The notes under the pieces were generated by a model, which was given only the letters and a program-made list of their open reading frames with translations, made no database searches and was not told where the DNA came from. DNA of 64,000 nucleotides from an uncultured Sphingomonadaceae bacterium (lineage in GTDB: Bacteria; Pseudomonadota; Alphaproteobacteria; Sphingomonadales; Sphingomonadaceae). Below are positions 5,894 to 26,389 of this stretch, piece after piece. The position numbers and the translations under genes are program-made. The stretch spans positions 704,568-768,567 of the forward strand of contig CANLSQ010000002.1 in assembly GCA_947493955.1 (NCBI GenBank), written 5' to 3'. The first letter of the stretch is position 1; every line of letters begins with the position of its first letter.

Positions 5894-5911
5894 TTTAATC
5901 GTTCAATTAAT
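5894..5911. promoter_or_regulatory. Palindromic operator, site 1 of 4 (TTTAA-N8-TTAA type)
   Basis: TTTAATCGTTCAATTAAT lies between the divergent molybdopterin oxidoreductase (44 bp from its ATG) and acyl-CoA dehydrogenase (82 bp from its ATG). It matches the dyad TTTAANNGNNCNNTTAA found also at 14073, 21850 and 26372; its first 12 bases are identical to those of site 4. The position suits control of both operons by one repressor. Confidence 0.65.
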
Positions 5912-5993
5912 CAGTAACGATTCCAAAAATAGGGCATGGCGGTCCTTGCTGCCACTGACCCTATTGATAAGATAATCTCAGGAGCAAAGCGCC

Positions 5994-7208
5994 ATGGCCG
6001 ACAAGCCCGATGCAGCCGAACTAAAGGAATATACCGAAGCCGCCGATGCGTGGTTCAAGGAGAACACCGTTCGTGATCCCGGCTTCATGTTGCCGCTCAC
6101 CTTCATGGAGGTGTCAACGGATCAGCAGTTTGATTTCCTGCGCGATTGGCAGCGCAAGGTCTATGAAGCAGGCTATCTCGGCGCGGCTTGGCCAAAAGAA
6201 TATGGCGGTGGCGGCCTGCACACCGATTTCCAACGCGCGGCGACCCGGGCTATGAAAAAATATGACGCTCCAATCATGCTCAATGCGATTGGCAATGGCT
6301 GGGCCGGGCCGCTGATCCTCGATCTGGGATCGGAGGAACAGAAGCAAAAATATATCAAAGGTATGCTCAATGCCGAGGATATCTGGTGCCAGGGATTTTC
6401 AGAGCCGGAACATGGCAGTGACCTTGGCAATGCGCAGTTGAAAGCGGTCAAAGACGGCGATGAATATGTCCTCAACGGATCGAAAATCTGGACCTCCCTA
6501 GGCGACCGGGCGAAATATATGATCCTGCTCGCGCGCACCGATTTTGAAGCAGAGAATAAATATAAGGGCCTCAGCTTCTTCCTTAATCCGATGAAGATTG
6601 ACGGGATCAGCACCAGCCGGATCAAGAAACTGACCGGGGAATATGGTTTTGTGCAGACCTTCTTTACCGACGCTCGCATCTCTGCCGACTGTCTGTTTGG
6701 CGGGGAGGGCAATGGCTGGTCGATGGCGATGAAGACGCTGGAATATGAACGCGGTGCGAAGGTGAAACCGGTGGGCGGATATTTCGTCAAGGAACTGGAT
6801 GTCATGCAGATTGTCGAACTGGCGAAAAACTCCATGCGCAACGGCAAGCCCTTGCTCGACGATCCGGTGATGCGCGACAAGATGACGCAATATATGATCG
6901 ATATCCAGGCGCTAAATCTCAACAATACCCGCCGCCGGATGCCACAGCTCATGCAGGACAAGCCCATGGGACTGCCGCTGATGAACAAGCTAGCGCGCAC
7001 TGAGTTAATTCGCGAGCTGACCGAGTTCTCGCTGGGCTTTCAGGGGACCAAGGCGGGCTATTATGTCGGCGACGAAAATGCGGTGGATGATGGCTATTGG
7101 CACCGCAGCTATCTCAACAGCTTCTCCGCAACAATTGGTGGTGGAACTTCCGAAATTCAGCGCAATATTGTCGCCGAGCATGCCCTTGGTCTGCCAAAGA
7201 CACGCTAA
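5994..7208 (+). CDS. Acyl-CoA dehydrogenase, large (full-length) partner
   Basis: At 404 residues this is a full-length flavin acyl-CoA dehydrogenase. It has the N-terminal helical domain, the FAD-contacting block WCQGFSEPEHGSDL near residue 130, and the C-terminal TIGGGTSEIQRNIVAEH motif near 385. The family introduces a 2,3-double bond into an acyl-CoA and passes electrons to ETF. An AGGAG site precedes the ATG. It is the first gene of a rightward operon, 29 bp before a shorter acyl-CoA dehydrogenase. Such long/short neighbours often form mixed tetramers in steroid catabolism, which is an inference here. Confidence 0.9.
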   Translation: MADKPDAAELKEYTEAADAWFKENTVRDPGFMLPLTFMEVSTDQQFDFLRDWQRKVYEAGYLGAAWPKEYGGGGLHTDFQRAATRAMKKYDAPIMLNAIGNGWAGPLILDLGSEEQKQKYIKGMLNAEDIWCQGFSEPEHGSDLGNAQLKAVKDGDEYVLNGSKIWTSLGDRAKYMILLARTDFEAENKYKGLSFFLNPMKIDGISTSRIKKLTGEYGFVQTFFTDARISADCLFGGEGNGWSMAMKTLEYERGAKVKPVGGYFVKELDVMQIVELAKNSMRNGKPLLDDPVMRDKMTQYMIDIQALNLNNTRRRMPQLMQDKPMGLPLMNKLARTELIRELTEFSLGFQGTKAGYYVGDENAVDDGYWHRSYLNSFSATIGGGTSEIQRNIVAEHALGLPKTR

Positions 7209-7237
7209 GCCTAAACAAGACAAATCAGGACGGATAA

Positions 7238-8362
7238 ATGAATAACCTAGGCGATATCGGCACGACCGAAGAGCAAATTGAATTGATGGATGTGGCAACC
7301 AACTTCTGCCGCGACAAATCCCCTATTGAAAAGGTCCGGGCGCTGATGGAGGACGATCTGGGCTATGACCCGGATGTCTGGAGAGAAATTGGTGAGCTGG
7401 GTTGGCTGGCCATTGCCATCCCCGAAGCACATGACGGTGTTGGCCTGTCTATGGCGGAAGTGGTGCCCATTGCCGAGCAAATGGGGCGCAATCTTCTGAG
7501 CACACCTTTTGGTTCAACGACCATAGCCGCCCAGGCTCTGCTGGCGGGCGGGAGCGAAGCACAGCAAGCCGCCTGGCTGCCCAAAATTGCGGCGGGCACG
7601 GCGGCAACGCTAGCCCTTCGGGAAGATCATGGTGACTGGAATCTCGGCAATGTTGCCAGTATCGGTAAAGAGACTGCAGACGGCATTGCCTTGTCTGGCA
7701 AGAAGCAATTGGTGCGCTGGGCCGATAGTGCAGAGCTTATCATCACTTCGGTCGAGGTGGACGGGAATGTCCGTTTTGCCATGATCGAACGCAGCGCATT
7801 GCCGGACGGCGCATTGCGGCGCGAGGCCATAATTGACGAAACCGCACGCAGTTTTGAACTCACCCTCGATGGCATAACGATATCGGCTGATGCCTTGTTT
7901 GATGGCAACCGGACACGTGAAACGATTGAAAAGATTGAACTTGCCGCAGGCTTGATTCATGCGGCCGAGATGACAGGCGGATCGCAAGCGGTGATCGACT
8001 ACACGCTCGAATATCTCAAGACGCGCAAGCAGTTTGACAAGATTATCGGTAGCTATCAGGCATTGAAACATCCGACGGTCGACAATTATGTCGAATATGA
8101 AAAGGCGCGCACGCATCTCTACAGCGCTGCCCATAGTTGGGGCGAACAGGGGCGTGGCGAAGTGGCGGTTCGCATGGCAGCTGCTCAGGCGCATTCGAGC
8201 TATAGCCGAGCAGCCGACCGCTCCATCCAGTTTCATGGCGGTTTTGGTTTTACCCATGATTGCGATGCACAACTGCATCGCCGCAAAGCGATTTTTGACG
8301 GCGCGCTGATTGGCGACGCTGCTTACCAACGGTCGAAACTGGCCGGCTTGCTATTTGATTAG
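7238..8362 (+). CDS. Acyl-CoA dehydrogenase, shorter partner
   Basis: A 374-residue acyl-CoA dehydrogenase family protein. It shows the RKQFDKIIGSYQALKH segment typical of the C-terminal FAD-binding half and ends with FHGGFGFTHDCDAQLHRRK, but lacks the GGTSEIQ motif of its upstream partner. The weaker central domain suggests a degenerate or complementary subunit. With the preceding 404-residue protein it could build an alpha2beta2 enzyme as described for mycobacterial steroid side-chain dehydrogenases. Spacing to the next gene is 20 bp, so one operon is likely. Confidence 0.87.
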   Translation: MNNLGDIGTTEEQIELMDVATNFCRDKSPIEKVRALMEDDLGYDPDVWREIGELGWLAIAIPEAHDGVGLSMAEVVPIAEQMGRNLLSTPFGSTTIAAQALLAGGSEAQQAAWLPKIAAGTAATLALREDHGDWNLGNVASIGKETADGIALSGKKQLVRWADSAELIITSVEVDGNVRFAMIERSALPDGALRREAIIDETARSFELTLDGITISADALFDGNRTRETIEKIELAAGLIHAAEMTGGSQAVIDYTLEYLKTRKQFDKIIGSYQALKHPTVDNYVEYEKARTHLYSAAHSWGEQGRGEVAVRMAAAQAHSSYSRAADRSIQFHGGFGFTHDCDAQLHRRKAIFDGALIGDAAYQRSKLAGLLFD

Positions 8363-8382
8363 GATTTAAAGGAGAGATCAAC

Positions 8383-9141
8383 ATGTCAGAAGTGCTCACA
8401 GATATTCAGGACGGTTTTATCATCGTCACCATCAACCGGCCCGATGCGAAGAACGCCATGACCAAGGCAGCGGCGGAAGGCATCCGTGCTGCGATGGAGC
8501 AGCTTGACAATGACAACAGCCTCAATGCCGGGATCATTACCGGCGCAGGCGGCACATTCTGTTCTGGCATGGATCTGAAAGGCTTCCTTCGCGGTGAAAC
8601 GCCGGCGGTCAAGGGATACGGCTTTGGCGGTATTACCGAAAAAGGACCGGAAAAGCCGATCATTGCGGCGGTCGAAGGCTATGCGCTGGCAGGTGGTCTG
8701 GAACTGGCTCTTGCCTGTGATCTTTGCGTCGCTAACAGCAATGCGAAATTTGGTATTCCAGAGGTCAAGCGCTCGCTCGTCGCAGCAGCGGGTGGCGTGA
8801 TCAAGCTCCAGCAATTGGTTGGCAAGCGCATTGCGATGGAGATGGCCTTGACCGGCGATTTCTTCTCTGCCCAGCGAGCCTATGATGTCGGTTTTGTAAA
8901 TCGTCTGACCGATGGTCCTGCTCTGGATGCAGCGATTGAATTGGCGGCGACCGTTGCAGCCAATGGTCCGCTGGCATTGAAAGCGACCAAGAAAATCATC
9001 AACGAAAGCTATGATTGGACCAGCGAAGAAGCCTGGAAAAAGCAGGCTGAAATTACCGGTCCTGTATTTATGTCCAAGGATGCACAGGAGGGATCGCTTG
9101 CTTTCGCACAGAAACGCAAACCCGATTGGAAAGGTGAATAA
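8383..9141 (+). CDS. Enoyl-CoA hydratase/isomerase (crotonase family)
   Basis: This 252-residue crotonase has the oxyanion-hole segments FCSGMDLKGF and ALAGGLELALACD. Both usual acidic positions look kept: the Glu in FGIPEVKRS and the Glu in RIAMEMALTGD. It should therefore be a working hydratase or isomerase of unsaturated acyl-CoA. An AAGGAGAG site lies upstream of the ATG. It sits between two acyl-CoA dehydrogenases and a RidA gene in one rightward operon, consistent with the second step of beta-oxidation. Confidence 0.9.
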   Translation: MSEVLTDIQDGFIIVTINRPDAKNAMTKAAAEGIRAAMEQLDNDNSLNAGIITGAGGTFCSGMDLKGFLRGETPAVKGYGFGGITEKGPEKPIIAAVEGYALAGGLELALACDLCVANSNAKFGIPEVKRSLVAAAGGVIKLQQLVGKRIAMEMALTGDFFSAQRAYDVGFVNRLTDGPALDAAIELAATVAANGPLALKATKKIINESYDWTSEEAWKKQAEITGPVFMSKDAQEGSLAFAQKRKPDWKGE

Positions 9142-9143
9142 TC

Positions 9144-9542
9144 ATGTCTGATATCGAGCGGATCAACCCCGATACGTTGCCGGATGCCGGTTCGATGGGC
9201 TATTCGCAGGTTACGACTTGTACGCCAGGGAAGATGATTTTCATCTCTGGCCAGGTGGCCTGGACCCCGGGCGGCGATCCGGCCCCCGATAATCTGGCCG
9301 AACAGGCGAAGATGGCGAGCAGCAACCTCGGTAAGGCATTGGCTTCGGCGGGAGCCGGGCCGGAGAATATCGTTTCTGCCCGCGCCTTTATCGTTGACTA
9401 TACCGAAGAAAAAGGCGCGGAAGCCTTTCCCGAGATACTCGCGTTCCTTGACGGAAACCAGGTCGCTTTCACCTTGATCGGTTGCGCGGCGCTGGCGTCG
9501 CCTGATCTGATGATAGAGATTGAGGCGATCGCGGTTGTCTGA
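9144..9542 (+). CDS. RidA/YjgF-family protein
   Basis: A 132-residue RidA-type protein with the family pattern MIFISGQVAW near residues 32-41 and SARAFIVDYTEE near 75-86. RidA proteins form trimers and hydrolyse reactive enamines or imines; catabolic relatives hydrolyse pathway intermediates. The gene begins two bases after the preceding stop and is translationally close to the next gene. The arginine typical of true RidA (in the R-x-C/A block) is not obvious, so a divergent subgroup is likely. Confidence 0.82.
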   Translation: MSDIERINPDTLPDAGSMGYSQVTTCTPGKMIFISGQVAWTPGGDPAPDNLAEQAKMASSNLGKALASAGAGPENIVSARAFIVDYTEEKGAEAFPEILAFLDGNQVAFTLIGCAALASPDLMIEIEAIAVV

Positions 9543-9546
9543 CCCT

Positions 9547-10503
9547 ATGGAGACGGGCAGCGGAGATATTGTTGATCTCTGGTCTGCCGACCAAGATCTG
9601 CCATCCTGGTTTACCGAAGCCTTGGACGTTCCGCGTGAGGAAGCCTTTATCGAAGTGGGCGGACAAAAGGTCCACTATTTCCGCTGGGGCAAACGTGGCA
9701 ATCCGCCGCTGCTACTGACACACGGATTTCTTGCCCATGCCCGCTGCTTTGCGTTTATCGCGCCCTTTCTGGCGGAGGATTATGACATTATCGTCTATGA
9801 TCTTGCCGGCATGGGGGAAAGCGAAATTGGAGCCGTGTTTGAAGGGACACAGCGCGCCGAAGACATGGTCGCACTTGCAGATGCGCTCGATCTTTTTTCC
9901 GGTCCGGTGAAACCTAAAATCATTGCGCACAGCTTTGGATCAGGCGTCGCGCTCACGGCGATGGAGTTGGCCGGGGAACGGTTTGGCGGTCTTGTCATCT
10001 GCGACCTGATGATCATGCGGCCTGAAAAACTCGCGGCCCATTTCAAGGGTGGAGGAGGGCCTCCGGGTTCCGGCAAGTCGGATCGGCCAACTAATGTCTA
10101 TCCCGACTATGAAACGGCGCGCGGACGTTTTGTGTTGGCCCCACCGCAGGATGTGCAGACACCGTTTCTGCTGGAATATATGGCTTATCACAGCATGCGC
10201 CGGGTTGAAGGCGGCTGGACCTGGAAATTCAATCCGAAAGTATTCCATCGTAGCGAGAATGATCAAGAAAAGTGGCGGCAGGCTCCGCAACGGATAGTCG
10301 ATCTGTCGCACCGGCTGGCGATTATCTATGGCGAGAATAGCAGATTGTTCGATGCCGATAGCGCAGCCTATTTGCGTGAGTTGGGAGGTGCCCATATTCC
10401 GATGATCGCGGTGCCCAAGGCGGAACATCACTTGATGCTCGATCAGCCTCTTGCATTTGTGGCTGCGCTGCGCTCTGTTCTGGCTTTGTGGGATTTTCCA
10501 TAA
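9547..10503 (+). CDS. Alpha/beta-hydrolase
   Basis: A 318-residue alpha/beta-hydrolase. The oxyanion region is LTHGFLAHARCF (about 58-69), the nucleophile elbow is AHSFGSGVAL with Ser129, and the catalytic His is probably in KAEHHLML near the C-terminus. A longer reading from a TTG at 9520 would overlap the RidA gene; I prefer the ATG at 9547, five bases after the RidA stop. Substrates could be esters, lactones or C-C bonds (meta-cleavage type). Operon position implies a role in the same catabolic route as its neighbours. Confidence 0.85.
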   Translation: METGSGDIVDLWSADQDLPSWFTEALDVPREEAFIEVGGQKVHYFRWGKRGNPPLLLTHGFLAHARCFAFIAPFLAEDYDIIVYDLAGMGESEIGAVFEGTQRAEDMVALADALDLFSGPVKPKIIAHSFGSGVALTAMELAGERFGGLVICDLMIMRPEKLAAHFKGGGGPPGSGKSDRPTNVYPDYETARGRFVLAPPQDVQTPFLLEYMAYHSMRRVEGGWTWKFNPKVFHRSENDQEKWRQAPQRIVDLSHRLAIIYGENSRLFDADSAAYLRELGGAHIPMIAVPKAEHHLMLDQPLAFVAALRSVLALWDFP

Positions 10504-10522
10504 ACCAGAAAGAGGTCCAGTG

Positions 10523-11470: not shown

Positions 11471-11547
11471 AACGACCCGGAATCGTCTGGATCCTCCAAA
11501 CGTGCTATTATTGGCACCTTAATTGATCGATTCATTGGGAGGAATTG

Positions 11548-12222
11548 GTGAGAGAGGAAGCGCAACCGAAAATTGTCAGCCATGAAGAATGGCAGTCAGC
11601 AATCGAAAAGCTACGCGAGAAAGAAAAAGAACTAACCCGGGCGCATGATGCTCTAAATGCCATGCGCCGCCGGTTGCCGATGGTGAAGATAGAAAAAAGC
11701 TACGAATTCCACGGCGAAGATGGCAATGTCAGCCTGTTGGACCTGTTTGAAGACCGAAAACAGCTTATCGTCTATCATTTCATGTTCGCCCCGGATGCAG
11801 ATGCTGGTTGTCCAGGCTGTTCATGGGTGACGGACGCCATGTCTCATCCTGCCCATTTGCATGCCCGGGACACATCCATTGTGCTCATATCGCGCGCGCC
11901 TTTGGAAAAGCTGCTCGCCTATAAGAAGCGCATGGGTTGGGAGCTGCCGTGGGTTTCATCCTTTGGCAGCGACTTTAATTATGATTTCAATGCGACCAAT
12001 GATGATGGTGAAAATCATGTCGCCAGTGTTTTCCTGCGCGATAGCGATCAGATTTACCGCACCTATTATACCGACCAGCGCGGCGTCGAGCATTTGGGCA
12101 GTCACTGGACCTGGCTCGATTTGACGCCTTATGGCCGCCAGGAGCCGTGGGAAGATGCACCCAAAGGCTGGCCCAAGGGGGAGATGTACTGGGACAAGCG
12201 CCATGATGAATATGGCGAATGA
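11548..12222 (+). CDS. DUF899 thioredoxin-like protein
   Basis: A 224-residue DUF899-family protein. An N-terminal coiled segment (about residues 12-40, rich in Glu/Lys) is followed by a thioredoxin-like domain with C88-P-G-C91 after FMFAPDADAG, and a C-terminal part with the YDFNATNDDG and TWLDLTPYGRQE segments typical of the family. No ATG fits; a GTG at 11548 follows GGGAGGA. Function is not known for the family, though a redox role is likely from the CxxC. It ends the rightward operon and converges with an SDR 24 bp away. Confidence 0.8.
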   Translation: MREEAQPKIVSHEEWQSAIEKLREKEKELTRAHDALNAMRRRLPMVKIEKSYEFHGEDGNVSLLDLFEDRKQLIVYHFMFAPDADAGCPGCSWVTDAMSHPAHLHARDTSIVLISRAPLEKLLAYKKRMGWELPWVSSFGSDFNYDFNATNDDGENHVASVFLRDSDQIYRTYYTDQRGVEHLGSHWTWLDLTPYGRQEPWEDAPKGWPKGEMYWDKRHDEYGE

Positions 12223-12246
12223 CCTTCTTGGCAGATTGCCGAACTG

Positions 12247-13032
12247 CTAGGCGTTCTTGATTGTAAGCCCGCCGTCAACAGGAATGATCGCACCGGTCAG
12301 GAAGCTGGCGGCTGGTAGCACGCAGGACAAGGTCATATGCGCGACCTCTTCCGGGATGGCATAGCGGCGCAGCGCTACGCGCCGTTTCGCGTAGATGGTT
12401 TTATGCTCCTCCGAAATTGCATCGGTAATGCCCGTACGGATCGGTCCGGGGCAGATGCAATTGACGGTGATGCCTTCGCGGCCGAGATCAACGGCCAAGC
12501 CTTTCGTCAGACCGATCACACCATGTTTGGCCGCAACATAGGGGCTGTTGCCCGGCGATGCGCCCAGGCCCTCCGTTGATGCGATATTGACTATCCGGGG
12601 ATGTTCGGCCTCTCTCAAATGGGGCAAGGCGGCGCGGATCATCCGCTGGTGGGCCGCCAGCATCACCGCAAGAGTCGGCTCCCAACTGTCTTCATAACTT
12701 TCCTCGGCAACATCCGCAGGAATTGCGAAGCCAGCATTGTTGACGAGAATGGCGATACCGCCAAATGCTTGGGCGATATCGGCGACAACCGCCTTGATTA
12801 TATCAGGGTTGCTGACATCGAGGGACCAGGCTTCGGCAGAGCCGTCATATCCGGCTGCTGCAATTTCCTCGACAACAGCATCGCATGCGCCCTGATCAAG
12901 ATCGGTCACTGCAACCTGCGCGCCTTCCGAGGCGAACAAATGTGCTGTGGCCCGGCCCATGCCGCTGGCAGCGCCGGTGATGATTGCTTTCTTGCCTGCA
13001 ATGGAGCGGCTGAGTGGTTGGTAAGGTTCCAA
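12247..13032 (-). CDS. SDR oxidoreductase
   Basis: A 261-residue classical SDR with TGAASGMG near residues 19-26, NNAGFA near 93-98, VNIASTEG carrying the catalytic serine, and YVAAKHG holding the Tyr/Lys pair. The only plausible start is TTG at 13032, two bases after the stop of the upstream flavoprotein gene, pointing to translational coupling. It is the last gene of a long leftward catabolic operon. The oxidised substrate is unknown; a hydroxyacyl-CoA or cyclic alcohol would fit the context. Confidence 0.85.
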   Translation of the reverse strand: MEPYQPLSRSIAGKKAIITGAASGMGRATAHLFASEGAQVAVTDLDQGACDAVVEEIAAAGYDGSAEAWSLDVSNPDIIKAVVADIAQAFGGIAILVNNAGFAIPADVAEESYEDSWEPTLAVMLAAHQRMIRAALPHLREAEHPRIVNIASTEGLGASPGNSPYVAAKHGVIGLTKGLAVDLGREGITVNCICPGPIRTGITDAISEEHKTIYAKRRVALRRYAIPEEVAHMTLSCVLPAASFLTGAIIPVDGGLTIKNA

Positions 13033-13034
13033 GA

Positions 13035-14012
13035 TCAGGCGGCTAAAAAGCCTTCCAGGCGCCCGCGGATAATTTCGTCCGCTTCGGTCATGATGCCGTC
13101 GATCAATTCCTTACAGGTCGGAATATCGTTGATCAGGCCGGCAACCATGCCGCAGCTCCAGGCGCCGGCGTCCATGGTGCCTTCCATCATGATCTGCGGA
13201 TAGACGCCAGCAACCTGCTCGATAATGTCGGTAAACTGCAGGTCGCTGCCTTTTTCCTTTTCGATCTCGAGCAGCCGCTCAACCGCCGCGTTGTTCAGCA
13301 CACGCTCGGTATTGCGCAGCGGTCGCATGACGAGACGGGTGTCGAGTTCGCTGGCGGCGACGATTGCGTCTTTAACATTCTGATGTACCGGTGCTTCTTT
13401 CGTGGCGATGAAGCGCGTGCCCATGTTCATGCCTTCCGCACCCATGGCGAGCGATGCCACAAGCGAGCGCGCATCGGCTTGTCCGCCGGAGCTGACGAAA
13501 GGAATGTCGAGTTCATCTGCTGCGCGTGGCAACAGGATCATGTTGGGGATATCGTCCTCACCAGGATGGCCGCCACATTCAAAGCCATCGACCGATACGG
13601 CATCACAGCCAATGCTCTGCGCTTTCAAGGCGTGACGCACCGCGGTGCATTTGTGAATGACTTTAACGCCAGCTTCTTTCAGGGCCGGGAGATATTGTGC
13701 CGGATTGTTGCCTGCAGTTTCCACTGCCTTGATGTCATTGTCGATAATCGCCTTGATATAGCCAGGATAGTCAGGCGTGTTGACGATTGGCAAGAAGGTG
13801 AGGTTCACGCCAATAGGCTTGTCGGTCAGCGCTTTGGCTTTCTTGATTTCCTTGTCGAGGTCTTCCGGTGTTTTCTGGGTCAGGCCGGTGATGATGCCGA
13901 GACCGCCTGCTTCGGAAACCGCTGCTGCCAGTTCGGCAAATCCCACATAGTGCATCCCGCCCTGAATGATCGGATGTTCGATGCCGAAAAGCTCTGTGAT
14001 GCGTGTTTTCAT
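13035..14012 (-). CDS. Nitronate monooxygenase-like flavoprotein (NPD family)
   Basis: A 325-residue TIM-barrel flavoprotein of the 2-nitropropane dioxygenase family. Family motifs seen are PIIQGGMHYVG at 16-26, the VDGFECGGHPG block around 150 with the conserved histidine, SSGGQADARSL and MGAEGMNMGTRF for FMN phosphate binding. Family members oxidise nitronates or act as enoyl reductases; in steroid degradation a relative (IpdC) reduces a ring intermediate. I choose the ATG at 14012 after AGAGGA rather than upstream starts. A palindromic operator sits 60 bp upstream, overlapping the end of the preceding dehydrogenase gene. Confidence 0.85.
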   Translation of the reverse strand: MKTRITELFGIEHPIIQGGMHYVGFAELAAAVSEAGGLGIITGLTQKTPEDLDKEIKKAKALTDKPIGVNLTFLPIVNTPDYPGYIKAIIDNDIKAVETAGNNPAQYLPALKEAGVKVIHKCTAVRHALKAQSIGCDAVSVDGFECGGHPGEDDIPNMILLPRAADELDIPFVSSGGQADARSLVASLAMGAEGMNMGTRFIATKEAPVHQNVKDAIVAASELDTRLVMRPLRNTERVLNNAAVERLLEIEKEKGSDLQFTDIIEQVAGVYPQIMMEGTMDAGAWSCGMVAGLINDIPTCKELIDGIMTEADEIIRGRLEGFLAA

Positions 14013-14072: not shown

Positions 14073-14090
14073 TTTAATCGGGCAGTTAAC
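14073..14090. promoter_or_regulatory. Palindromic operator, site 2 of 4
   Basis: TTTAATCGGGCAGTTAAC shares TTTAATCG, C, AG and TTAA with the site at 26372. It lies 60 bp upstream of the flavoprotein ATG and overlaps the stop codon of the preceding acyl-CoA dehydrogenase. This suggests an internal regulated promoter for the flavoprotein-SDR pair. Confidence 0.55.
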
Positions 14091-15111
14091 TAGCAATCCA
14101 GGCGCCAGTTGTCACGCCTTTCCAAATTTGGTCCGGTGACGTTACGGCAAGCTCTGCGCCCAGCAATTTGGACCAGTGGTGCTCATTCCCCAAGGCATCG
14201 CGCCAGGCCCATAGACGGCGGGTATAATGGTGGAGGTCATATTCCTGCGTATAGCCCATCGCGCCATGCACCTGATGGAATGGCACGGTAACGGCTTCGA
14301 CGCTGTGACCGATCTGGACCTTCGCAACCACCGCTTCATGCCATGCCTTTTCCGGATCATCGGCGTTGCGAGCGAGCGCGCTGGCCGCCTGTGTCGCGGC
14401 CATGGTCGCGGCGGCGCTTTCAGACGCAGCGACGGCGAGCTGATGCTGGATCGCCTGAAATTTCGACAATGGTCGGCCAAATTGTTCGCGGTCCGATACA
14501 TAGGCGATGGAGAGGTTGAGCGCGGCTTCGATGGCCGACGCCATTTGCACCGCACGGACGGTTAGGATCAAAGCCTCGACCGCGCGGCGCGACAGGTTGG
14601 TCGCGGCGCTCGCGACGGGCGTCGCGGTGGAGAAGTCCAGACGCGTATCGCTGTCGGGTGACAAGGCTTGCCCATCAACCGCCGATGCGTCGGCGGTTTT
14701 GTAGAGAGCAATTTCGTTCTCGCTGGCATCATAGACGGCCACATGATCGGCTGTGCCGGCGAACGGGACGCTGGCGGCATTACCTTCCACAAGCGCAAAA
14801 GTGGCAGCGCCGTCGGGAATGGCGACGCCAGCCCGGTCGAGCAACCAGTTGGCGATCAATGTCTCTGCAAAGGGCACTGGCGAGGCCGCTTCTGCCGACA
14901 CCCAAATGGCTCCGAAGACTTCATCATAATCGGCACCAAAGCCACCATTATCTTCGCTCACCCAAGCCAGCGGCAACCCGTTTTCGGCAAGTGCGTCCCA
15001 AAGGGCTTGCGGATATTGGCCAGCTTCAGCTTCATGCGGCACTTCGCGCCCGCACAGATCGGCGTAAATCTTCGCTGCGGTTTCAGCGACCATGCCTTCT
15101 GTATTTATCAT
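14086..15111 (-). CDS. Acyl-CoA dehydrogenase, shorter partner
   Basis: A 341-residue acyl-CoA dehydrogenase family protein, shorter than the usual 380-400. It has the VSDREQFGRPLSKFQAIQHQ motif of the C-terminal flavin-binding half and HQVHGAMGYTQEYDLHHY near 285-302. The central beta domain (about 110-170) is compressed and poorly conserved. It pairs with the 384-residue dehydrogenase immediately upstream (11 bp gap), repeating the long/short arrangement seen at 5994-8362. A strong AAGGGGAG site precedes the ATG. Confidence 0.87.
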   Translation of the reverse strand: MINTEGMVAETAAKIYADLCGREVPHEAEAGQYPQALWDALAENGLPLAWVSEDNGGFGADYDEVFGAIWVSAEAASPVPFAETLIANWLLDRAGVAIPDGAATFALVEGNAASVPFAGTADHVAVYDASENEIALYKTADASAVDGQALSPDSDTRLDFSTATPVASAATNLSRRAVEALILTVRAVQMASAIEAALNLSIAYVSDREQFGRPLSKFQAIQHQLAVAASESAAATMAATQAASALARNADDPEKAWHEAVVAKVQIGHSVEAVTVPFHQVHGAMGYTQEYDLHHYTRRLWAWRDALGNEHHWSKLLGAELAVTSPDQIWKGVTTGAWIAS

Positions 15112-15122
15112 TGCCGCTCCCC

Positions 15123-16302: not shown

Positions 16303-18249
16303 TCAAGGTGTCACAATGTTAAACTGCGGGTCTACCGGGTCGAGTGCGCCAAACATAGCTGCCATAAGGGCGGTATCCCCGCTGACCGTCATTGCGCCGG
16401 ACTGGATTAGTTCCAACGGATTGGCCTGTCGCAGCAACAGCCGTGTGAAGTCGGTCCGGTTGATCCCGATCTGGGCAGTAGCCGCCTCAGCCTTGCCGGC
16501 ACGCGGGAACATAACGCTTTTGCCGAAATCAACATTAATGGCTTCCTCGCGATCCGCAAAAGTAAACTGGATTTTACCGCCGTCCCCTTGCATTTTTGCC
16601 GGATTGAAACGGGTGGCAATGGCGTCGAACAGGTCGATAGCCGCTATGCTGTTCAGCACTTTGGCATTGGAACTGGTGACGGTACCAGAGCCCTTGTTAC
16701 CCTCCCGCAATTCCTTGGCGCCGACAAGATAGATATTGCGCCACGTGCCTGCTTCCGCCTGAAAGCCGAGCTGCTCATAGCTGGAGGCCAACCATTTTCG
16801 GGCAATTTCATTGGCGGGATCAGCAAAGACAATATGATTGAAAACAGTCGCGGCCCATCGATATTCACCGGCATCAAATGCTTTTTCGCCTACGGCAAGC
16901 GCTTTTTCCGTGCCGCCCATGGCAGCGACATATTTCTTGGAAGCCTCCGCTGGCGGCAGTTGATGATAGGTTGCCGGAACCGCATCCCACCAGCCGAAAT
17001 AGCGTTGATAGACGGCCTTACTATTGTGATTAAGCGTGCCATAATAATCGCGCACGCCAAAATCGCTTTTGGCAAAATCAGGCTCGCCAATATTTTCCGC
17101 CAGTTCATGCATGGTTGCGCCCTGATTGGCCTGACGTATCGTCTGGTCATGGACATAGCGGTACAGGCCTCGCTGGTTTCTCAGGGCTGTTTGCACATTT
17201 TCACTGCCCCAGGTTGGCCAGTGATGGGAGGCCAATAATATTTCCGCCTTCGCGCCATATTTTTCATACATGGCATCGATAACCTTGCTCCACTTTAGCG
17301 TATCACGCACCAATGCTCCGCGCGGTGTCAGCACATTATGGAAGGTTCGCGTCGCCACTTCGGCGCTATGCAAAGCCTTAAATTGTGGCAGGTAGAAAAC
17401 AAACTCGGCCGGCGCTTCGGTTTCACTGGCATCCATAAATTCGAATGTAATGCCATCAATGACCAGCTTTTCACCATCTTCGCCAATAGTCTTCGTTGGC
17501 GGCACCAGCGCCACATCGCCGCGCGACAGCGCTTGTCCCAGACCACCGCCGACATGACCTGTTTTCCCTGCCGGTAAAGCGGTACCAAATTGAAACTGCA
17601 CCCGCCTGCTCATCGCTGTGCCGGCGATAACCGCTTCGCCGATAGATTCTCTGACAAATCCGTGCGGCGCGATGATCTGAACATCGTCATAGGCAAGATC
17701 AAGCTTGCCTATGACACCATTGACACCGCCATAGTGATCACCGTGACTATGGGTAAACAAGACTGCGCTGACGGGTCGTTTGCCGAGCGTTTTATTGGCC
17801 AGAGCCAAGCCAGCCTTGGCCGGTGCGGGTGTGGTCAGCGGGTCTACTATGATCCAGCCTTTTTCACCTGCGATCAACGTCATCTGCGCCAAATCATAGC
17901 CGCGAATTTGATATATGCCGGGAACAACTTCAAACAGGCCGTGGATGCTGTTGAGCTTTCCTTGTCGCCAAAGCGAAGGATTTACCGTGTCCGGCGCATC
18001 ACCTTTTACAAAATCAAACTGGCTCGGGTCCCACGCAACCGATCCATCTTCATTGAGAATCGGTTTTTCGATTTTGGCAAGGAAACCACGATTGGCATTT
18101 TCGAAATCATTTTGGTCTGCAATGGGAAGGCGGGCACCAAAGTCCGCATTGGCTTTTTTGGTGGCCTCAGTTGCGACACCCTCAGGCGGCGCGGCATAGG
18201 CGGTCGTTGCGATGGCCAATGTTAAAAGCGGAACAACAAATTTTCTCAT
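16303..18249 (-). CDS. Secreted alkyl/aryl-sulfatase-like metallo-beta-lactamase protein
   Basis: The 648-residue protein begins with a Sec signal (cleavage expected after TTAYA at 19), then a metallo-beta-lactamase domain with THSHGDHYGG at 166-175 and a LLASHHWPTWG segment further on. A helical dimerisation part and a C-terminal sterol carrier-like (SCP2) domain with the GDTALMAAMFGALD segment follow. This is the layout of SdsA1/BDS1 alkylsulfatases, which hydrolyse primary or secondary alkyl sulfates in the periplasm using two zinc ions. The ATG at 18249 sits eight bases after AAAGGG; a GTG six bases earlier is less likely. It lies between an enoyl-CoA hydratase and acyl-CoA dehydrogenases, linking sulfate ester cleavage to beta-oxidation. 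Confidence 0.87.
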   Translation of the reverse strand: MRKFVVPLLTLAIATTAYAAPPEGVATEATKKANADFGARLPIADQNDFENANRGFLAKIEKPILNEDGSVAWDPSQFDFVKGDAPDTVNPSLWRQGKLNSIHGLFEVVPGIYQIRGYDLAQMTLIAGEKGWIIVDPLTTPAPAKAGLALANKTLGKRPVSAVLFTHSHGDHYGGVNGVIGKLDLAYDDVQIIAPHGFVRESIGEAVIAGTAMSRRVQFQFGTALPAGKTGHVGGGLGQALSRGDVALVPPTKTIGEDGEKLVIDGITFEFMDASETEAPAEFVFYLPQFKALHSAEVATRTFHNVLTPRGALVRDTLKWSKVIDAMYEKYGAKAEILLASHHWPTWGSENVQTALRNQRGLYRYVHDQTIRQANQGATMHELAENIGEPDFAKSDFGVRDYYGTLNHNSKAVYQRYFGWWDAVPATYHQLPPAEASKKYVAAMGGTEKALAVGEKAFDAGEYRWAATVFNHIVFADPANEIARKWLASSYEQLGFQAEAGTWRNIYLVGAKELREGNKGSGTVTSSNAKVLNSIAAIDLFDAIATRFNPAKMQGDGGKIQFTFADREEAINVDFGKSVMFPRAGKAEAATAQIGINRTDFTRLLLRQANPLELIQSGAMTVSGDTALMAAMFGALDPVDPQFNIVTP

Positions 18250-18264
18250 GATCACTGCCCTTTC

Positions 18265-19659: not shown

Positions 19660-20075
19660 CGGTCTTCAGCAACACCACTGGCGAACGCGGCTTCACGCTG
19701 ATTGAAATGCTGGTTGCGCTGTCGGTCTTCAGCCTGGCGGCGCTCGCGTTGGTCAGACTGCAGGGTTATACGACGCGCAATACAGCCGAACTGGAATTGC
19801 GGGTCGTGGCCCAATCTGTTATCCGCAACCGAGCGGTGGAAATATTGACTGATCCGCGTCCGCCAAGCCTTGGCGAAAGTAGCGGCGAGGAAAAAAATGG
19901 CGGGCTCGGCTGGACATGGACGCAAAGCGCCCGCCTCACCGAAGAGGGTAATTTCATCCAGGTTGATATTACCGCACAGGAAAAGATCAGCGGCGCACCA
20001 GCCACTCTGACAATATTGCGGCCGGCGAATATTGTGCTCGATGCACCTGAGCCGGTATCACCTGCCGAAAACTAA
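19656..20075 (+). CDS. gspI: Type II secretion minor pseudopilin GspI
   Basis: A 139-residue prepilin-like protein with cleavage expected after Gly12, then FTLIEMLVALSVFSLAALALV as the N-terminal helix. The size and the ATLTILRP end fit GspI, the minor pseudopilin that nucleates the tip complex with GspJ and GspK. Start overlaps gspH (ATGA). The gene converges on purU with only two bases between stop codons, so gspJ and gspK are not next to it as they usually are. Confidence 0.8.
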   Translation: MTVFSNTTGERGFTLIEMLVALSVFSLAALALVRLQGYTTRNTAELELRVVAQSVIRNRAVEILTDPRPPSLGESSGEEKNGGLGWTWTQSARLTEEGNFIQVDITAQEKISGAPATLTILRPANIVLDAPEPVSPAEN

Positions 20076-20077
20076 AC

Positions 20078-20944: not shown

Positions 20945-21064
20945 ATCGCCTCTTCGGCTTCCAATTGGCCGAAACTTGGCATTTTGAAAAGCGGGATTTA
21001 CCCTTGTGCTGATTTCTGCAGGGATTAGAAGCCTCCAAAAGACATCCGAAGGACAGGACGCAAT

Positions 21065-21802: not shown

Positions 21803-21849
21803 TGAGTTATTGTCTTTGTCTATGACTCGTGGCTGAGACAATCCATTGA

Positions 21850-21867
21850 TTTAACTGCGCGCTTAAA
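21850..21867. promoter_or_regulatory. Palindromic operator, site 3 of 4
   Basis: TTTAACTGCGCGCTTAAA is a full dyad match to TTTAANNGNNCNNTTAAA and lies 76 bp upstream of the acyl-CoA synthetase ATG. Only the outer arms and the central G/C pair match the other sites, which argues for a real symmetric protein site rather than a copied promoter. Confidence 0.6.
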
Positions 21868-21943
21868 CCATGATGGGGAAAACGCGAATCGCGAAGCTCG
21901 AACAGGGCAAAGGCGGTCGCCCCCAAATGGAGAGAAGCCACCA

Positions 21944-23479
21944 ATGCACCCTTATCTGCATGCTCAGGAAAATCCCGATAAGCCAGCGGTCATCATGGCC
22001 AGCACCGGAGCCGTTGAAACATATGCTGAGCTTGACAAGGCATCGAACCGCTTGGCGCATCTCTTCCGTAAAGAGGGTCTGCAAATCGGCGATACGGTGG
22101 CGGTACTGCTCGACAACCATCCCAAATTCTTTGACTTTGCCTGGGCCGCACAGCGCGCAGGCCTTTACTATGTGGCTATTCCAAGCCGCCTGACCGCCGC
22201 CGAAGTATCTTATATTTTGGGTGATAGTGGTGCGTCGCTGTTGATCAGCTCCGATACTAAGCAAGGTGTTGTTGACGAACTTCACAAGCTCAACCCCGAT
22301 GTGAAACAATTTCTTTATGGTGTTGAGGATAGCCGCGCGATCGAACCAGTACTGGCCGCATTGCCGGACGGGCCGATTGATGATGAGCGCCATGGCACCG
22401 ATATGCTTTACAGTTCAGGCACAACGGGTCGGCCCAAGGGTGTGCGAATCCCGTTTCCTGAGGATGAAAATATCGCCGCACCCAATGCGCTGGTGATGAT
22501 GGCGCAAGGCGCTTTCGGGATTCAACCCGGCTGCACCTATCTATCGCCGGCACCGCTTTACCACGCTGCCCCACTGCGATGGTGCATGGCCGTCCACAAG
22601 ATGGGTGGCACAGTGATCGTGATGGAAAAATTCGATCCCGAACAGGCGCTGGCGCTGATTGAAAAACACAAGGTCGATGCCAGTCAATGGGTGCCGACAC
22701 ATTTCAGCCGGATGCTCAAGCTTCCGGATGAAACAAGGGCGAAATATGATGTATCCAGCCTGACATGTGCCGTTCATGCAGCTGCGCCTTGCCCTATTCC
22801 GGTGAAGGAGAAGATGATCGAATGGTGGGGCCCCATAATTCGCGAATATTATGCGGGCTCAGAAGGCAATGGATTTACCTTCATCAACTCGGAAGATTGG
22901 TTGGAGCATAAAGGCTCGGTAGGCAAAGCGCTTCTGGGCATTGTGCATATTTGCGATGAGAATGATGACGAAGTTCCCGTCGGTGAAGAAGGTCAGATTT
23001 ATTTCGAAGGTGGTGCCCCGGTAAAATATCATAATGACCCTGAGAAAACCAAGGCCGCACATAACAAACATGGCTGGACCTCGCTGGGAGATGTTGGGAA
23101 AGTCGATGAGGATGGCTTTCTGTATCTCACTGACCGCAAAAGCTTCATGATCATTTCTGGCGGTGTGAACATCTATCCGCAGGAGATTGAAAACCTGCTC
23201 GTCACCCACCCGAAAGTAATCGATGCCGCCGTGATCGGCGCGCCCGACGAGGATATGGGGGAGAAGGTGGTCGCCGTGGTTCAGCCGATGGATATGGCTG
23301 ACGCCAATGATGATTTTGCACAAGAGCTGGAAGTCTATTTGCGGCAGTCACTGTCGGGCGTCAAAGTCCCGCGCCAGATAGATTTTCGTGCCGAATTGCC
23401 ACGAGTGCCGACCGGCAAACTCTACAAGCGCCTGCTTCGCGACGAATATTGGGGCAAGACCGGCAGCCGGATTGTTTAA
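21944..23479 (+). CDS. Acyl-CoA synthetase (AMP-binding, FadD-like)
   Basis: A 511-residue member of the adenylate-forming family. The P-loop-like motif LYSSGTTGRPKGV is at 155-167, EYYAGSEGNGFTF holds the adenine-binding region, GDVGKVDEDGFLYLTDRKS contains the hinge aspartate, and the C-terminal PTGKLYKR has the catalytic lysine. The enzyme activates a carboxylic acid to its CoA thioester through an acyl-AMP. It opens an operon with the P450 (12 bp gap) and the aldehyde dehydrogenase, the expected order for side-chain oxidation and activation. The chain-length or ring preference cannot be read. Confidence 0.9.
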   Translation: MHPYLHAQENPDKPAVIMASTGAVETYAELDKASNRLAHLFRKEGLQIGDTVAVLLDNHPKFFDFAWAAQRAGLYYVAIPSRLTAAEVSYILGDSGASLLISSDTKQGVVDELHKLNPDVKQFLYGVEDSRAIEPVLAALPDGPIDDERHGTDMLYSSGTTGRPKGVRIPFPEDENIAAPNALVMMAQGAFGIQPGCTYLSPAPLYHAAPLRWCMAVHKMGGTVIVMEKFDPEQALALIEKHKVDASQWVPTHFSRMLKLPDETRAKYDVSSLTCAVHAAAPCPIPVKEKMIEWWGPIIREYYAGSEGNGFTFINSEDWLEHKGSVGKALLGIVHICDENDDEVPVGEEGQIYFEGGAPVKYHNDPEKTKAAHNKHGWTSLGDVGKVDEDGFLYLTDRKSFMIISGGVNIYPQEIENLLVTHPKVIDAAVIGAPDEDMGEKVVAVVQPMDMADANDDFAQELEVYLRQSLSGVKVPRQIDFRAELPRVPTGKLYKRLLRDEYWGKTGSRIV

Positions 23480-23491
23480 GCGGAGGATGAT

Positions 23492-24784
23492 ATGAGCGTA
23501 GCACCACAAGCACCGGCCCCTGTGGCATCAACGGTGATCGACCCTGTCGCCTATGCGGAATGGGACGGTCTGCTCGATACATTTGACTGGCTGCGTGTAA
23601 ATATGCCGGTTACGCGGGTGGAGAATGGCGATCTGCATGATCCATTCTGGCTGGTCACCGGCTATGATGATGTCATGCGGATCAGCAAGGATAACAAAAC
23701 GTTCCTTAACAGTCCGCGCGGCGTGGTATTCGGATTTCGAGAAGGCGAAGAAATAGTGAAGGCCGTGACCGGCGGCAGTCCGCATCTGGTCAATTCGCTG
23801 GTCGCGCTGGATGCTCCGATTCATCCCAAATATCGCCGTCTGACCCAGGAATGGTTCATGCCGAAAAATCTTAAGCAGCTCGAAGGGGAGATTGGCGCGC
23901 TGGCCAAGACCACCGTTGATCGGTTGGTGGAGGCCGGACCGGAAGCGGATTTTGTCCCGCTGGTCGCGTCGCCTTACCCGCTCCACGTGATCATGCAGAT
24001 ATTGGGCGTGCCGGAGGCGGATGAACAGCGCATGCTGTTCCTGACCCAGCAAATGTTCGGCGGGCAGGACGAGGATCTGAACAAGACCGGCATGGCGAAT
24101 ATGACGGCGGAACAGATCACCCAATTGGTTATTGGAGCGGTCGCCGATTTCGAAACCTATTTTGCCAAAATAACCGAAGAAAAACGCGCCAATCCGACCG
24201 ATGATGTCGCCAGCGTGATTGCCAATGCCAAGGTTGATGGCGAATATCTCAGCGACCGCGATATGGCGGGCTATTATATCATCGTCGCATCGGCAGGGCA
24301 TGATACCACATCGGCTTCAACATCGGGTGCGATGATGGCACTGGCCCAGGATCCCGAGCAGTTTGCGCGGCTGAAAGCTGATCGTGAGTTGCTGCCGGGC
24401 ATTGTCGAAGAAGCCATCCGCTGGACTTCACCGGTGCAGCATTTCATGCGTACGGCGGCCGAAGACGTTGAGGTTGGCGGGGTGTCGGTCAAAAAAGGCG
24501 ACTGGCTGATGATCAACTATGTCGCGGCCAACCATGATGACCGGGTGTTCGACAACCCGCGCAAGTTTGATGCGGCCCGTTCACCTAATCGCCATCTGGC
24601 ATTCGGTGCCGGCGCGCATCAATGTCTTGGCCTGCATATGGCGCGGTTGGAAATGAAGATATTGTTCAACGAACTGCTCGACCGGATCGAAACGGTCGAA
24701 CTGGCTGGAGAACCCAAGCGGGCAAAATCGAGTTTTGTCGGTGGACTGAAAACATTACCACTTAGATATACTCTATCAAAATGA
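23492..24784 (+). CDS. Cytochrome P450
   Basis: A soluble 430-residue bacterial P450 without a membrane anchor. The I-helix oxygen-activation motif AGHDTT is at 268-273, ExxR at 307-310, and the heme loop FGAGAHQCLG places the ligand at Cys378. It resembles the group with CYP108/CYP125-type terpenoid and steroid hydroxylases, but subfamily cannot be fixed by eye. It probably hydroxylates an unactivated carbon, giving an alcohol for oxidation to the acid. No ferredoxin or ferredoxin reductase gene is nearby, so its electron donors are encoded elsewhere. An AGCGGAGGA site precedes the ATG. Confidence 0.9.
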   Translation: MSVAPQAPAPVASTVIDPVAYAEWDGLLDTFDWLRVNMPVTRVENGDLHDPFWLVTGYDDVMRISKDNKTFLNSPRGVVFGFREGEEIVKAVTGGSPHLVNSLVALDAPIHPKYRRLTQEWFMPKNLKQLEGEIGALAKTTVDRLVEAGPEADFVPLVASPYPLHVIMQILGVPEADEQRMLFLTQQMFGGQDEDLNKTGMANMTAEQITQLVIGAVADFETYFAKITEEKRANPTDDVASVIANAKVDGEYLSDRDMAGYYIIVASAGHDTTSASTSGAMMALAQDPEQFARLKADRELLPGIVEEAIRWTSPVQHFMRTAAEDVEVGGVSVKKGDWLMINYVAANHDDRVFDNPRKFDAARSPNRHLAFGAGAHQCLGLHMARLEMKILFNELLDRIETVELAGEPKRAKSSFVGGLKTLPLRYTLSK

Positions 24785-24862
24785 CAGGAGTAGATAGTCT
24801 TGTAATAATATAGAAGAAGCCAAAATAGACACGGTAGGGCAGAATTTCCAAAGGAGAGCAAC

Positions 24863-26290
24863 ATGGTTACCCAATATAAGAACCTCATCAACGGCCAGAT
24901 GATCAGCACCGACGAGATGCTGGACGTGGTCAATCCCGCCAATGAAGAAGTAATAGGTCAGGTGCCTTCATGCGGCGAGGCAGAGCTCAATGAAGCAGTG
25001 GCCGCAGCGCGCGCCGCTTTCCCGGCGTGGAGCAAGAAATCGATCGATGAACGCCGCGCTGTGGTGCAGGCGATTTCCGCCACCATCAAGGAAAATAGTG
25101 ACGAGCTGTTCCGCCTGCTGACCGCAGAGCAGGGCAAGCCGCATGCACAGGCGCAGGGCGAAATTATCGGCGCGTCAATGATGGCTGGCGCGCAGTCCAC
25201 ACTCGACCTCGATGACGAAATCAACGAAGATAGCGAAGAACGCCTCAGCCGCACCCGGCGGGTTCCGGTTGGTGTGGTTGGCGGCATCGTGCCATGGAAT
25301 TTCCCGGTCATGATGGCGGTGCAGAAAATTGCGCCCGCGCTTTTGTCGGGTTGCACCATCGTCCTGAAACCATCGCCATTCACACCGCTCACCACATTGC
25401 GGCTGGCGGAATTGATTAAGGACGTTGCGCCGGCTGGCGTGGTCAACATTCTGACCGGCGAAGATAGCCTTGGTCCGCTCATTACCGGCCATCCCGATAT
25501 CGACAAGATCACCTTCACTGGCTCCACCGCGACCGGCAAGAAGATCATGGAAGGCGCTTCCAAGGATCTCAAGCGGATCACTTTGGAGCTGGGCGGCAAT
25601 GATGCGTCCATCGTTCTGCCTGATGCCAATGTCGAGAAAGTCGCAGAGCAGCTATTCTGGTCAAGCTTCACCAATGCCGGCCAAATCTGTGTCGCGGCGA
25701 AGCGCATCTACATCCACGAAGATATTTATGACGAGCTAAGCGCGGCAATTGCTGAATATGCCAAACATGTGAAAGTTGGTGACGGCGCGCAGCAGGGTAC
25801 AGCGGTCGGACCAATTCAGAACAAGAAGCAATATGATCGGGTTCTGGAACTGGTGCAGGATGCCAAGGATAATGGCTATAAATTCCTCGTCGGCGGGGAC
25901 CATGATCCCGATGTGCCGGGCTATTATATGCCAATTACGATCCTCGACAATCCGCCGGAAGATGCGAGGATCGTGGCCGAAGAACAATTTGGTCCGGTCA
26001 TGCCACTGATGAAATTCAGCACCGAGGAAGAAGCCATCCAACGTGCGAATGATAGCGAATATGGCTTGGCTGGCGCGGTCTGGACCGCTGACCCTGACAA
26101 GGGTGTTGAAGTGGCCGAGCAGCTGGAAACCGGCACTGTTTGGGTCAACGAGTTCCTCCACCTGTCGCCATTCGCTCCCTTTGGCGGGCACAAGCAATCC
26201 GGCTTTGGTGCGGAATATGGCAAGGAAGGCCTTCTGGAATTCACCTATCCACAGGTGATCACGGTCAAGAAAGATAACGTACCTGCTTAA
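24863..26290 (+). CDS. NAD(P)-dependent aldehyde dehydrogenase
   Basis: The 475-residue protein has all catalytic landmarks of the family: Asn146 in VPWNFP, Glu242 in LELGGND, and the nucleophile Cys276 in NAGQICVAAKR. The FTGSTATGK turn binds the cofactor. It oxidises an aldehyde to its acid, fitting between the P450 and the CoA ligase of the same operon. An AAGGAG site lies ahead of the ATG. A strong terminator closes the operon at 26315-26347. Confidence 0.92.
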   Translation: MVTQYKNLINGQMISTDEMLDVVNPANEEVIGQVPSCGEAELNEAVAAARAAFPAWSKKSIDERRAVVQAISATIKENSDELFRLLTAEQGKPHAQAQGEIIGASMMAGAQSTLDLDDEINEDSEERLSRTRRVPVGVVGGIVPWNFPVMMAVQKIAPALLSGCTIVLKPSPFTPLTTLRLAELIKDVAPAGVVNILTGEDSLGPLITGHPDIDKITFTGSTATGKKIMEGASKDLKRITLELGGNDASIVLPDANVEKVAEQLFWSSFTNAGQICVAAKRIYIHEDIYDELSAAIAEYAKHVKVGDGAQQGTAVGPIQNKKQYDRVLELVQDAKDNGYKFLVGGDHDPDVPGYYMPITILDNPPEDARIVAEEQFGPVMPLMKFSTEEEAIQRANDSEYGLAGAVWTADPDKGVEVAEQLETGTVWVNEFLHLSPFAPFGGHKQSGFGAEYGKEGLLEFTYPQVITVKKDNVPA

Positions 26291-26314
26291 AAACACAGGT
26301 TGCGATTGAAAGAG

Positions 26315-26347
26315 GCCGGTTATCACTATTGTGATGATCGGCTTTTT
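26315..26347 (+). terminator. Rho-independent terminator after the aldehyde dehydrogenase gene
   Basis: GCCGGTTATCAC at 26315-26326 pairs with GTGATGATCGGC at 26331-26342 (two G-T wobbles, four-base loop) and is followed by five T. It separates the CoA ligase-P450-aldehyde dehydrogenase operon from the thiolase operon, so the latter needs its own promoter. Confidence 0.85.
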
Positions 26348-26371
26348 CATTTGACGCTAGGGCGACGCAGG

Positions 26372-26389
26372 TTTAATCGTTCAGTTAAA
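26372..26389. promoter_or_regulatory. Palindromic operator, site 4 of 4
   Basis: TTTAATCGTTCAGTTAAA lies between the terminator at 26347 and the thiolase ATG, 35 bp upstream of it. It is a full match to TTTAANNGNNCNNTTAAA and shares its first 12 bases with site 1. Confidence 0.65.

Follow-up and report, generated by a model that had tools for sequence, protein, structure and literature searches.

A 64,000-nucleotide stretch of the 3.4-Mb genome of an uncultured Sphingomonadaceae bacterium (C2:704568-768567; the window) carries five copies of a palindromic element close to gene starts, one of them before an operon that contains the tetR gene at 29383. From sequence comparison, we consider it probable that these and further copies elsewhere in the genome are operators of one regulon, bound by the product of this tetR gene, which would repress promoters of acyl-CoA catabolism and of its own operon and be released by an acyl-CoA. 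Sphingomonads are studied for the breakdown of hydrocarbons, steroids and lignin products; the literature we searched, which took in few subscription papers and no RegPrecise tables, yielded no master regulator of fatty-acid or acyl-CoA metabolism for them. Control of beta-oxidation by a TetR protein is an expected, ordinary kind of circuit; this particular regulon is previously undescribed in the literature searched.

The initial annotation had described four palindromes of the pattern TTTAANNGNNCNNTTAA, 35–82 bp upstream of catabolic operon starts and with a tiny chance expectation. All four are present exactly as described (Table 1), and they are the only places (six strand-matches) at which the pattern occurs in the window; dinucleotide shuffles of the window gave an expectation of 0.01, and six strand-matches were reached in 0 of 100. 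The distances hold as well, with gene starts called by codon usage. Operator 1 lies 82 bp from the start at 5994 (+) and 43 bp from that at 5850 (-), operator 2 lies 60 bp from 14012 (-), operator 3 76 bp from 21944 (+) and operator 4 35 bp from 26425 (+). Operator 2 overlaps the stop codon of the preceding acyl-CoA dehydrogenase gene (14086-15111, -), which puts it in the position of an internal promoter. Sites were scored with a matrix built from 71 sites of relatives and of the own genome, those of near relatives included, and with a second matrix built from 42 sites of other genera only. A fifth, weaker site, absent from the initial annotation, precedes the DUF899 gene, its core ending 13 bp before the start at 11548. 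The other-genera matrix ranked the operators in the same order and gave operator 5 14.0 bits. Below the five, the next best place in the window scores 5.6 bits with the 71-site matrix and 7.2 bits with the other-genera matrix, and Markov sequences contain 0.1 places of at least 13 bits per window with the former.

Genome-wide, the earlier pattern has 12 distinct places, compared with 2 per strand for the reversed control; one of the 12 (C1:1238290) is intragenic, and another (C1:389437, before an AMP-binding ligase gene) fits a looser half-site only. The dyad as such stood, and its form had to be amended: each half-site has mostly pyrimidines at its two inner positions (YYG/CRR), and a T is favoured, though dispensable, at the outermost position. 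The refined core, TTAAYYGNNCRRTTAA, supersedes the earlier pattern. An 18-base form (TTTAANNGNNCNNTTAAA) with two mismatches was rejected, as it gave 109 places versus 226 per strand in the reversed control, that is, fewer. With at most one mismatch, the refined core occurs at 24 places (nine exact and 15 with one mismatch; reversed control, 4), which are distributed over contigs C1, C2, C3 and C5. The window, holding five of the 24, is a dense part of the regulon; the initial annotation was thus right about a single regulon and wrong in calling it local and in counting four sites.

The surroundings of all 24 places were inspected in this genome scan, which the initial annotation had proposed. 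At every one of them the nearest called start is 9–114 bp away, and three overlap the 3′ end of the adjoining gene. By hand count, acyl-CoA enzymes are encoded in the operons behind 15 of the 24, including C1:965314, where the acyl-CoA dehydrogenase gene is the second. The classes found behind these 15 are acyl-CoA dehydrogenases, enoyl-CoA hydratases, thiolases, FadD, a FadB-type protein, two acyl-CoA carboxylases and a CoA-transferase III. The other nine sites precede genes for a molybdopterin oxidoreductase, an NMO-type flavoprotein with a short-chain dehydrogenase (SDR), an aldo/keto reductase, a metallo-beta-lactamase (MBL) fold protein, an amidohydrolase, a DUF899 protein, a DUF3604 protein, a tryptophan dioxygenase and a TonB receptor.

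We looked for loss of the motif in syntenic relatives, which the initial annotation had named as grounds for refutation, and found the motif kept. At orthologous thiolase promoters a site of at least 16 bits lies 14–77 bp from the start in 38 of 38 scored loci, down to a thiolase identity of 60% in Povalibacter uvarum (58 loci were given; 17 had no thiolase match, and three were skipped, one as a 36% non-orthologue and two because the start lay outside the locus). Eighteen of the 38 thiolases are at least 90% identical to that of the window, and these come from close relatives. Where the operon has shrunk to SDR-tetR (loci L180, L181, L182 and L185), the site stands before the SDR gene. The ligase gene behind operator 3 is preceded by a site with 0–1 mismatch in 22 relatives' loci, and in L109, L110 and L113 it lies behind an acyl-CoA dehydrogenase operon that itself carries the site. 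Across relatives' sites, the inner bases vary and the arms are kept. We also examined 42 exact sites in 40 stretches from seven relatives, chosen from the places listed and not comprising every site of every genome. All 42 are intergenic, 9–176 bp from a start, and 24 precede acyl-CoA enzymes (hand count from BLAST labels and Pfam); the others precede genes for a P450, GMC and NMO oxidoreductases, a TonB receptor, DUF2855, an AAA protein and others.

The presence of the site goes along with the TetR rather than with the target gene, as can be seen from the thiolase of an acyl-CoA dehydrogenase–thiolase–FadB operon. In 8 of 8 TetR-positive genomes a site of 11.9–29.6 bits (seven of at least 20 bits) lies within 1.5 kb upstream of it, whereas 21 of 22 orthologues in TetR-negative genomes score below 0; scores were obtained for 30 of the 33 genomes that have this thiolase, and 11 of 19 TetR-positive genomes had no over-threshold orthologue. 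This comparison is subject to a caution about kinship, given below.

The co-occurrence of motif and tetR orthologue was another check proposed in the initial annotation. In the family sample (149 genomes), the exact core is present in 18 of 19 genomes with a close TetR orthologue (at least 237 bits) and in 1 of 130 without; the order sample added 86 family genomes, with figures of 17 of 17 (at least 231 bits) and 0 of 69. Together, the 235 family genomes have the core in 35/36 with the orthologue versus 1/199 without (Fisher p ~2e-39, uncorrected for relatedness). Within the family sample, TetR and regulon were found together in 10 genera. The exact core does not rise above background outside family f1, where there are 17 sites in 14 of 61 genomes compared with 31 reversed-control sites in 19. 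Among the 397 genomes of a phylum sample, with at most seven candidates scored per genome, close orthologues (at least 252 bits) were seen in four, all of family f1, the rest being distant (at most 157 bits). Comparison across genomes shows that the sites exist, that they are conserved and stand at promoters, and that they are tied to this TetR.

The 29383 product is a member of the TetR family. It matches TetR_C_9 with 171.5 bits (cut-off 25.3) and TetR_N with 22.4 bits in one scan (cut-off 24) and 24.7 bits in the genome scan. Its structural model (mean pLDDT 87.7) has TetR regulators as nearest folds, including fatty-acid- or acyl-CoA-responsive ones: PfmR, Thermus thermophilus FadR with dodecyl-CoA, and Bacillus FadR, with 18–22% identity in the fold alignments for the Thermus proteins and the TetR-type Bacillus FadR. 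The recognition-helix stretch, GLNSALVKYYFGNK, is shared without change by 65 of 65 close-orthologue loci and, among 14 distant homologues, by one, that of Povalibacter. In the own genome, among 25 TetR_N loci, it occurs only in the 29383 gene, with no near form in the others (an HMM recovered 18 of the 25 proteins; this check covered all 25 loci). Povalibacter uvarum, which we take to be a gammaproteobacterium, has a divergent thiolase/tetR pair (L116 8594-10663), whose TetR is 40% identical and which has a 16.1-bit site between the genes. Two distant homologues with VNSALVKYYFGNK (L081 and L178) have only weak sites nearby, of 9.0 and 7.2 bits. In G157, which belongs to another family, the site close to the distant homologue is situated 3′ of tetR, between two convergent genes, and was therefore not taken as support. 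The initial annotation had named the 29383 TetR as the candidate binder, and the genome scan, the syntenic conservation and the co-occurrence with its orthologue lend this strong support: it is very probably the binder.

We infer from these data the following mechanism. A TetR dimer, one per dyad, would bind the 18-bp sequence tTTAAYYGNNCRRTTAAa through the recognition helix and repress about 25 promoters genome-wide. These would serve beta-oxidation and the acyl-CoA catabolism linked to it (acyl-CoA dehydrogenases, hydratases, thiolases, FadD ligases, acyl-CoA carboxylases, a CoA-transferase and a FadB-type protein) as well as associated oxidoreductases and uptake. The TetR would also repress its own operon, and would come off the DNA when an acyl-CoA or similar thioester is formed from the substrate. 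Two points make repression the likely sign: in 20 of the 42 relatives' sites the core ends 9–30 bp before the start codon, so that a bound dimer would stand in the way of initiation, and operator 4 holds an autoregulatory position. The targets point to an acyl-CoA as the likely ligand, and so do the fold neighbours, among them T. thermophilus FadR with dodecyl-CoA. With operators before beta-oxidation genes throughout the genome and one before its own operon, the protein would be, in functional terms, a TetR-type regulator of fatty acid degradation.

Several observations weigh against this interpretation. For some targets (DUF899, DUF3604, tryptophan dioxygenase and amidohydrolase), a part in lipid metabolism is not obvious. 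One of the three sites overlapping a 3′ end, C1:1495490, lies wholly inside the last bases of the adjoining gene, and the acyl-CoA dehydrogenase pair at C1:1813072 lies farther from the site (100 bp) than a peptidoglycan hydrolase gene does (86 bp). When -35/-10 elements were sought around 92 oriented promoters, none had a convincingly fixed position (TTGAC at -22 in 5), so promoter elements do not bear out the repressor geometry. As for the acyl-CoA dehydrogenase–thiolase–FadB operon, TetR-negative L257 scores 12.7 bits, above the weakest TetR-positive genome (11.9), and the TetR-positive orthologues are also nearer relatives (83–100% versus 58–73% identity). The co-occurrence statistics ignore phylogeny, and a limited number of candidates was scored per genome in the protein searches, so that a few orthologues may be missed. 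Individual genomes also depart from the rule. G065 lacks an exact core despite having the TetR; its four one-mismatch sites (reversed control, 2) are found before SDR-tetR, an electron transfer flavoprotein (ETF) gene and a tRNA-modification gene, the fourth having no start nearby. G057, without the TetR, has one exact site, 109 bp from a small open reading frame (ORF) and with no lipid gene adjoining, and in G131 the sole exact site stands 194 bp from an ORF with no plain connection to lipids. G287 has a tetR and no site of at least 9 bits in the 12 kb examined, though the genome has two exact cores. Exact cores are few in G065, G131 and G290, and two of 12 sites inspected there (of 13 inspected in all) are intragenic, both of them one-mismatch sites of G290, which makes one-mismatch places in such genomes less reliable. 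On the supporting side, a one-mismatch site is kept in both G065 and G290 before the gene for ETF, the electron acceptor of acyl-CoA dehydrogenases.

The alternative we take most seriously, though we think it rather unlikely, keeps the same TetR and operators and differs in the inducer. This would be the CoA thioester of a special substrate (an isoprenoid, a steroid side chain, an alkyl sulfate or an aromatic), and the regulon would serve unusual carbon sources broadly. In its favour, two molybdopterin oxidoreductases, P450s, NMO-type flavoproteins, a GMC oxidoreductase, CoA-transferase III, an amidohydrolase, tryptophan dioxygenase and TonB receptors are among the targets, and an alkyl sulfatase gene lies in the same cluster of the window. 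However, the targets that recur across genera include core ones: thiolases, acyl-CoA dehydrogenases, an acyl-CoA carboxylase and, in G065 and G290, ETF. It is less probable again that the TetR is an activator or acts with both signs. Some sites are 60–176 bp from the start, and PsrA is described as activator and repressor in the part of PMC13104628 available to us; the 20 relatives' sites next to the start codon, however, are too close for upstream activation, a site also stands before the tetR operon, and most of the TetR proteins that have been studied act as repressors according to the accessible text of PMC3511530.

That some other regulator, co-inherited with this tetR, binds the sites seems more improbable still. 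Co-occurrence alone cannot separate linked genes, and the own genome has as many as 25 TetR_N matches, but tetR remains behind the operator even in the shrunken operons, and GLNSALVKYYFGNK is constant in all the close orthologues and in distant Povalibacter and, among the TetR_N loci of the own genome, is peculiar to this gene. Finally, the sites themselves had supplied the pattern, so that AT-rich palindromes arising by chance, or another element such as a terminator, had to be considered. In view of the shuffles, the reversed-pattern controls, the absence of relatives' exact sites from genes (0/42) and the conservation down to 60% thiolase identity, we give this explanation practically no weight.

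Beyond the proposed repression of acyl-CoA catabolism by the 29383 TetR, a wider reading can be put forward tentatively, as a whole. In it, the protein would be the as yet undescribed master regulator of acyl-CoA flux in part of the Sphingomonadaceae and a non-orthologous stand-in for FadR, PsrA and FadP; its reach would extend to xenobiotic oxidoreductases, CoA-transferases, TonB uptake and a fabD-like gene at a shared divergent promoter; and its recognition-helix/operator code would have been moved to, or kept intact in, the thiolase/tetR pair of gammaproteobacterial Povalibacter.

We compared the TetR with known proteins. Its orthologue in Novosphingobium aromaticivorans, Saro_1072 (phmmer E 2.5e-80; Foldseek E 4e-19, 63% identity), has structures from structural genomics (PDB 2qtq and 2rha), deposited as a 'predicted DNA-binding transcriptional regulator' with no operator or regulon attached there. 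No function for it was found in the literature searched, in which the name Saro_1072 does not occur and the five papers containing the string 2QTQ were, by title, not on its biology. The present analysis supplies a candidate binder with this solved orthologue and a precise operator with very low background (core in 1 of the 199 TetR-less family genomes). Target lists for dozens of genomes come with it and allow expression to be predicted, and a role is suggested for targets without known function (DUF899, DUF3604 and the molybdopterin oxidoreductases).

PsrA, a TetR protein of Pseudomonas and other gammaproteobacteria, controls beta-oxidation, has an operator at its own promoter and is released by long-chain fatty acids, as described in the portion of PMC13104628 available. 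Judged by sequence, the 29383 TetR appears to share with it the control of beta-oxidation and the operator at the own promoter. It is not PsrA, as it scores 22.8 bits with the NCBIfam PsrA model (cut-off 300), and the operators differ as well: G/CAAAC(N2-4)GTTTG/C for PsrA, in the same portion of that source, versus TTAAYYG(N2)CRRTTAA here (TTAAYYGNNCRRTTAA). Nor does it reach the cut-off of the NCBIfam model of Bacillus FadR (23.5 bits; cut-off 200). FadP, a TetR protein predicted in RegPrecise, controls fatty-acid degradation in betaproteobacteria only, with ~18 genes per genome, according to the part of PMC5343134 that could be consulted; by this description, it resembles the TetR studied here in being a protein that would take over this control in one lineage. 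EdcR of Caenibius tardaugens, a bacterium formerly called Novosphingobium, is a TetR repressor of a catabolic cluster. Its operator, TnnCnnTACnAnTnGTAnnGnnA, described for one gene cluster in the available part of PMC8700777, is a different dyad, and the bile-salt palindromes in the accessible text of PMC12882949 are different sequences too.

Table 1. Operators, proposed target genes and the candidate regulator in the window
Feature	Coordinates	Strand	Sequence, score and remarks
Operator 1	5894..5911	.	TTTAATCGTTCAATTAAT; 27.5 bits; between divergent molybdopterin oxidoreductase and acyl-CoA dehydrogenase/enoyl-CoA hydratase operon
Operator 2	14073..14090	.	TTTAATCGGGCAGTTAAC; 24.5 bits; upstream of NMO-type flavoprotein and SDR genes
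Operator 3	21850..21867	.	TTTAACTGCGCGCTTAAA; 22.1 bits; upstream of FadD/P450/aldehyde dehydrogenase operon
Operator 4	26372..26389	.	TTTAATCGTTCAGTTAAA; 31.0 bits; upstream of thiolase-SDR-enoyl-CoA hydratase-tetR operon, autoregulatory position
Operator 5 (weaker)	11518..11535	.	CTTAATTGATCGATTCAT; 13.9 bits; before DUF899 gene
Molybdopterin oxidoreductase and SDR operon	2851..5850	-	Proposed target of operator 1
Two acyl-CoA dehydrogenases and enoyl-CoA hydratase operon	5994..9141	+	Proposed target of operator 1
DUF899 protein gene	11548..12222	+	Probable target, behind operator 5
NMO-type flavoprotein (Pfam) and SDR (named from sequence) operon	12247..14012	-	Proposed target of operator 2
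Acyl-CoA ligase (FadD4-like), cytochrome P450 and aldehyde dehydrogenase operon	21944..26290	+	Proposed target of operator 3
Thiolase, first gene of tetR operon	26425..27597	+	
SDR, tetR operon	27620..28405	+	
Enoyl-CoA hydratase/isomerase family protein, tetR operon	28461..29330	+	
tetR gene	29383..30024	+	TetR_N and TetR_C_9 (PF14514); candidate binder
Recognition-helix stretch, codons	29524..29565	+	GLNSALVKYYFGNK; identical in all close-orthologue loci examined

The alkyl sulfatase gene at 16303-18255 (-) lies inside the acyl-CoA cluster of the window. Its product has an MBL fold with Alkyl_sulf dimerisation and C-terminal domains and an SCP2-like domain, and among the places found there is no operator of its own. 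The two molybdopterin oxidoreductases of the regulon are different proteins (window 3634-5850 and L024 3834-5933). The one-mismatch site at C1:1208815 (L032 3816) is situated between the tryptophan 2,3-dioxygenase gene and a divergent gene; it could connect the regulon with amino acid catabolism or be a false positive.

In two genera (L020 3815 and L159 2519) the operator lies at a divergent promoter shared by a fabD-like gene (Acyl_transf_1) and an APH-DUF6285 gene; in the own genome, the latter gene is followed by an acyl-CoA dehydrogenase gene. A related AT-rich dyad, of 17.2 bits with the matrix, is found in Sphingobium fluviale (L117 9684) and may mark a related operator code; ~300 bp behind it comes a TetR match of 33% identity, whose recognition stretch is GVNAAMIKYYFGNK. 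In L123 (2479-3339) an AAA ATPase gene starts 16 bp behind the operator, and a gene that looks similar by eye is found at the same distance in L150, which is from another genus.

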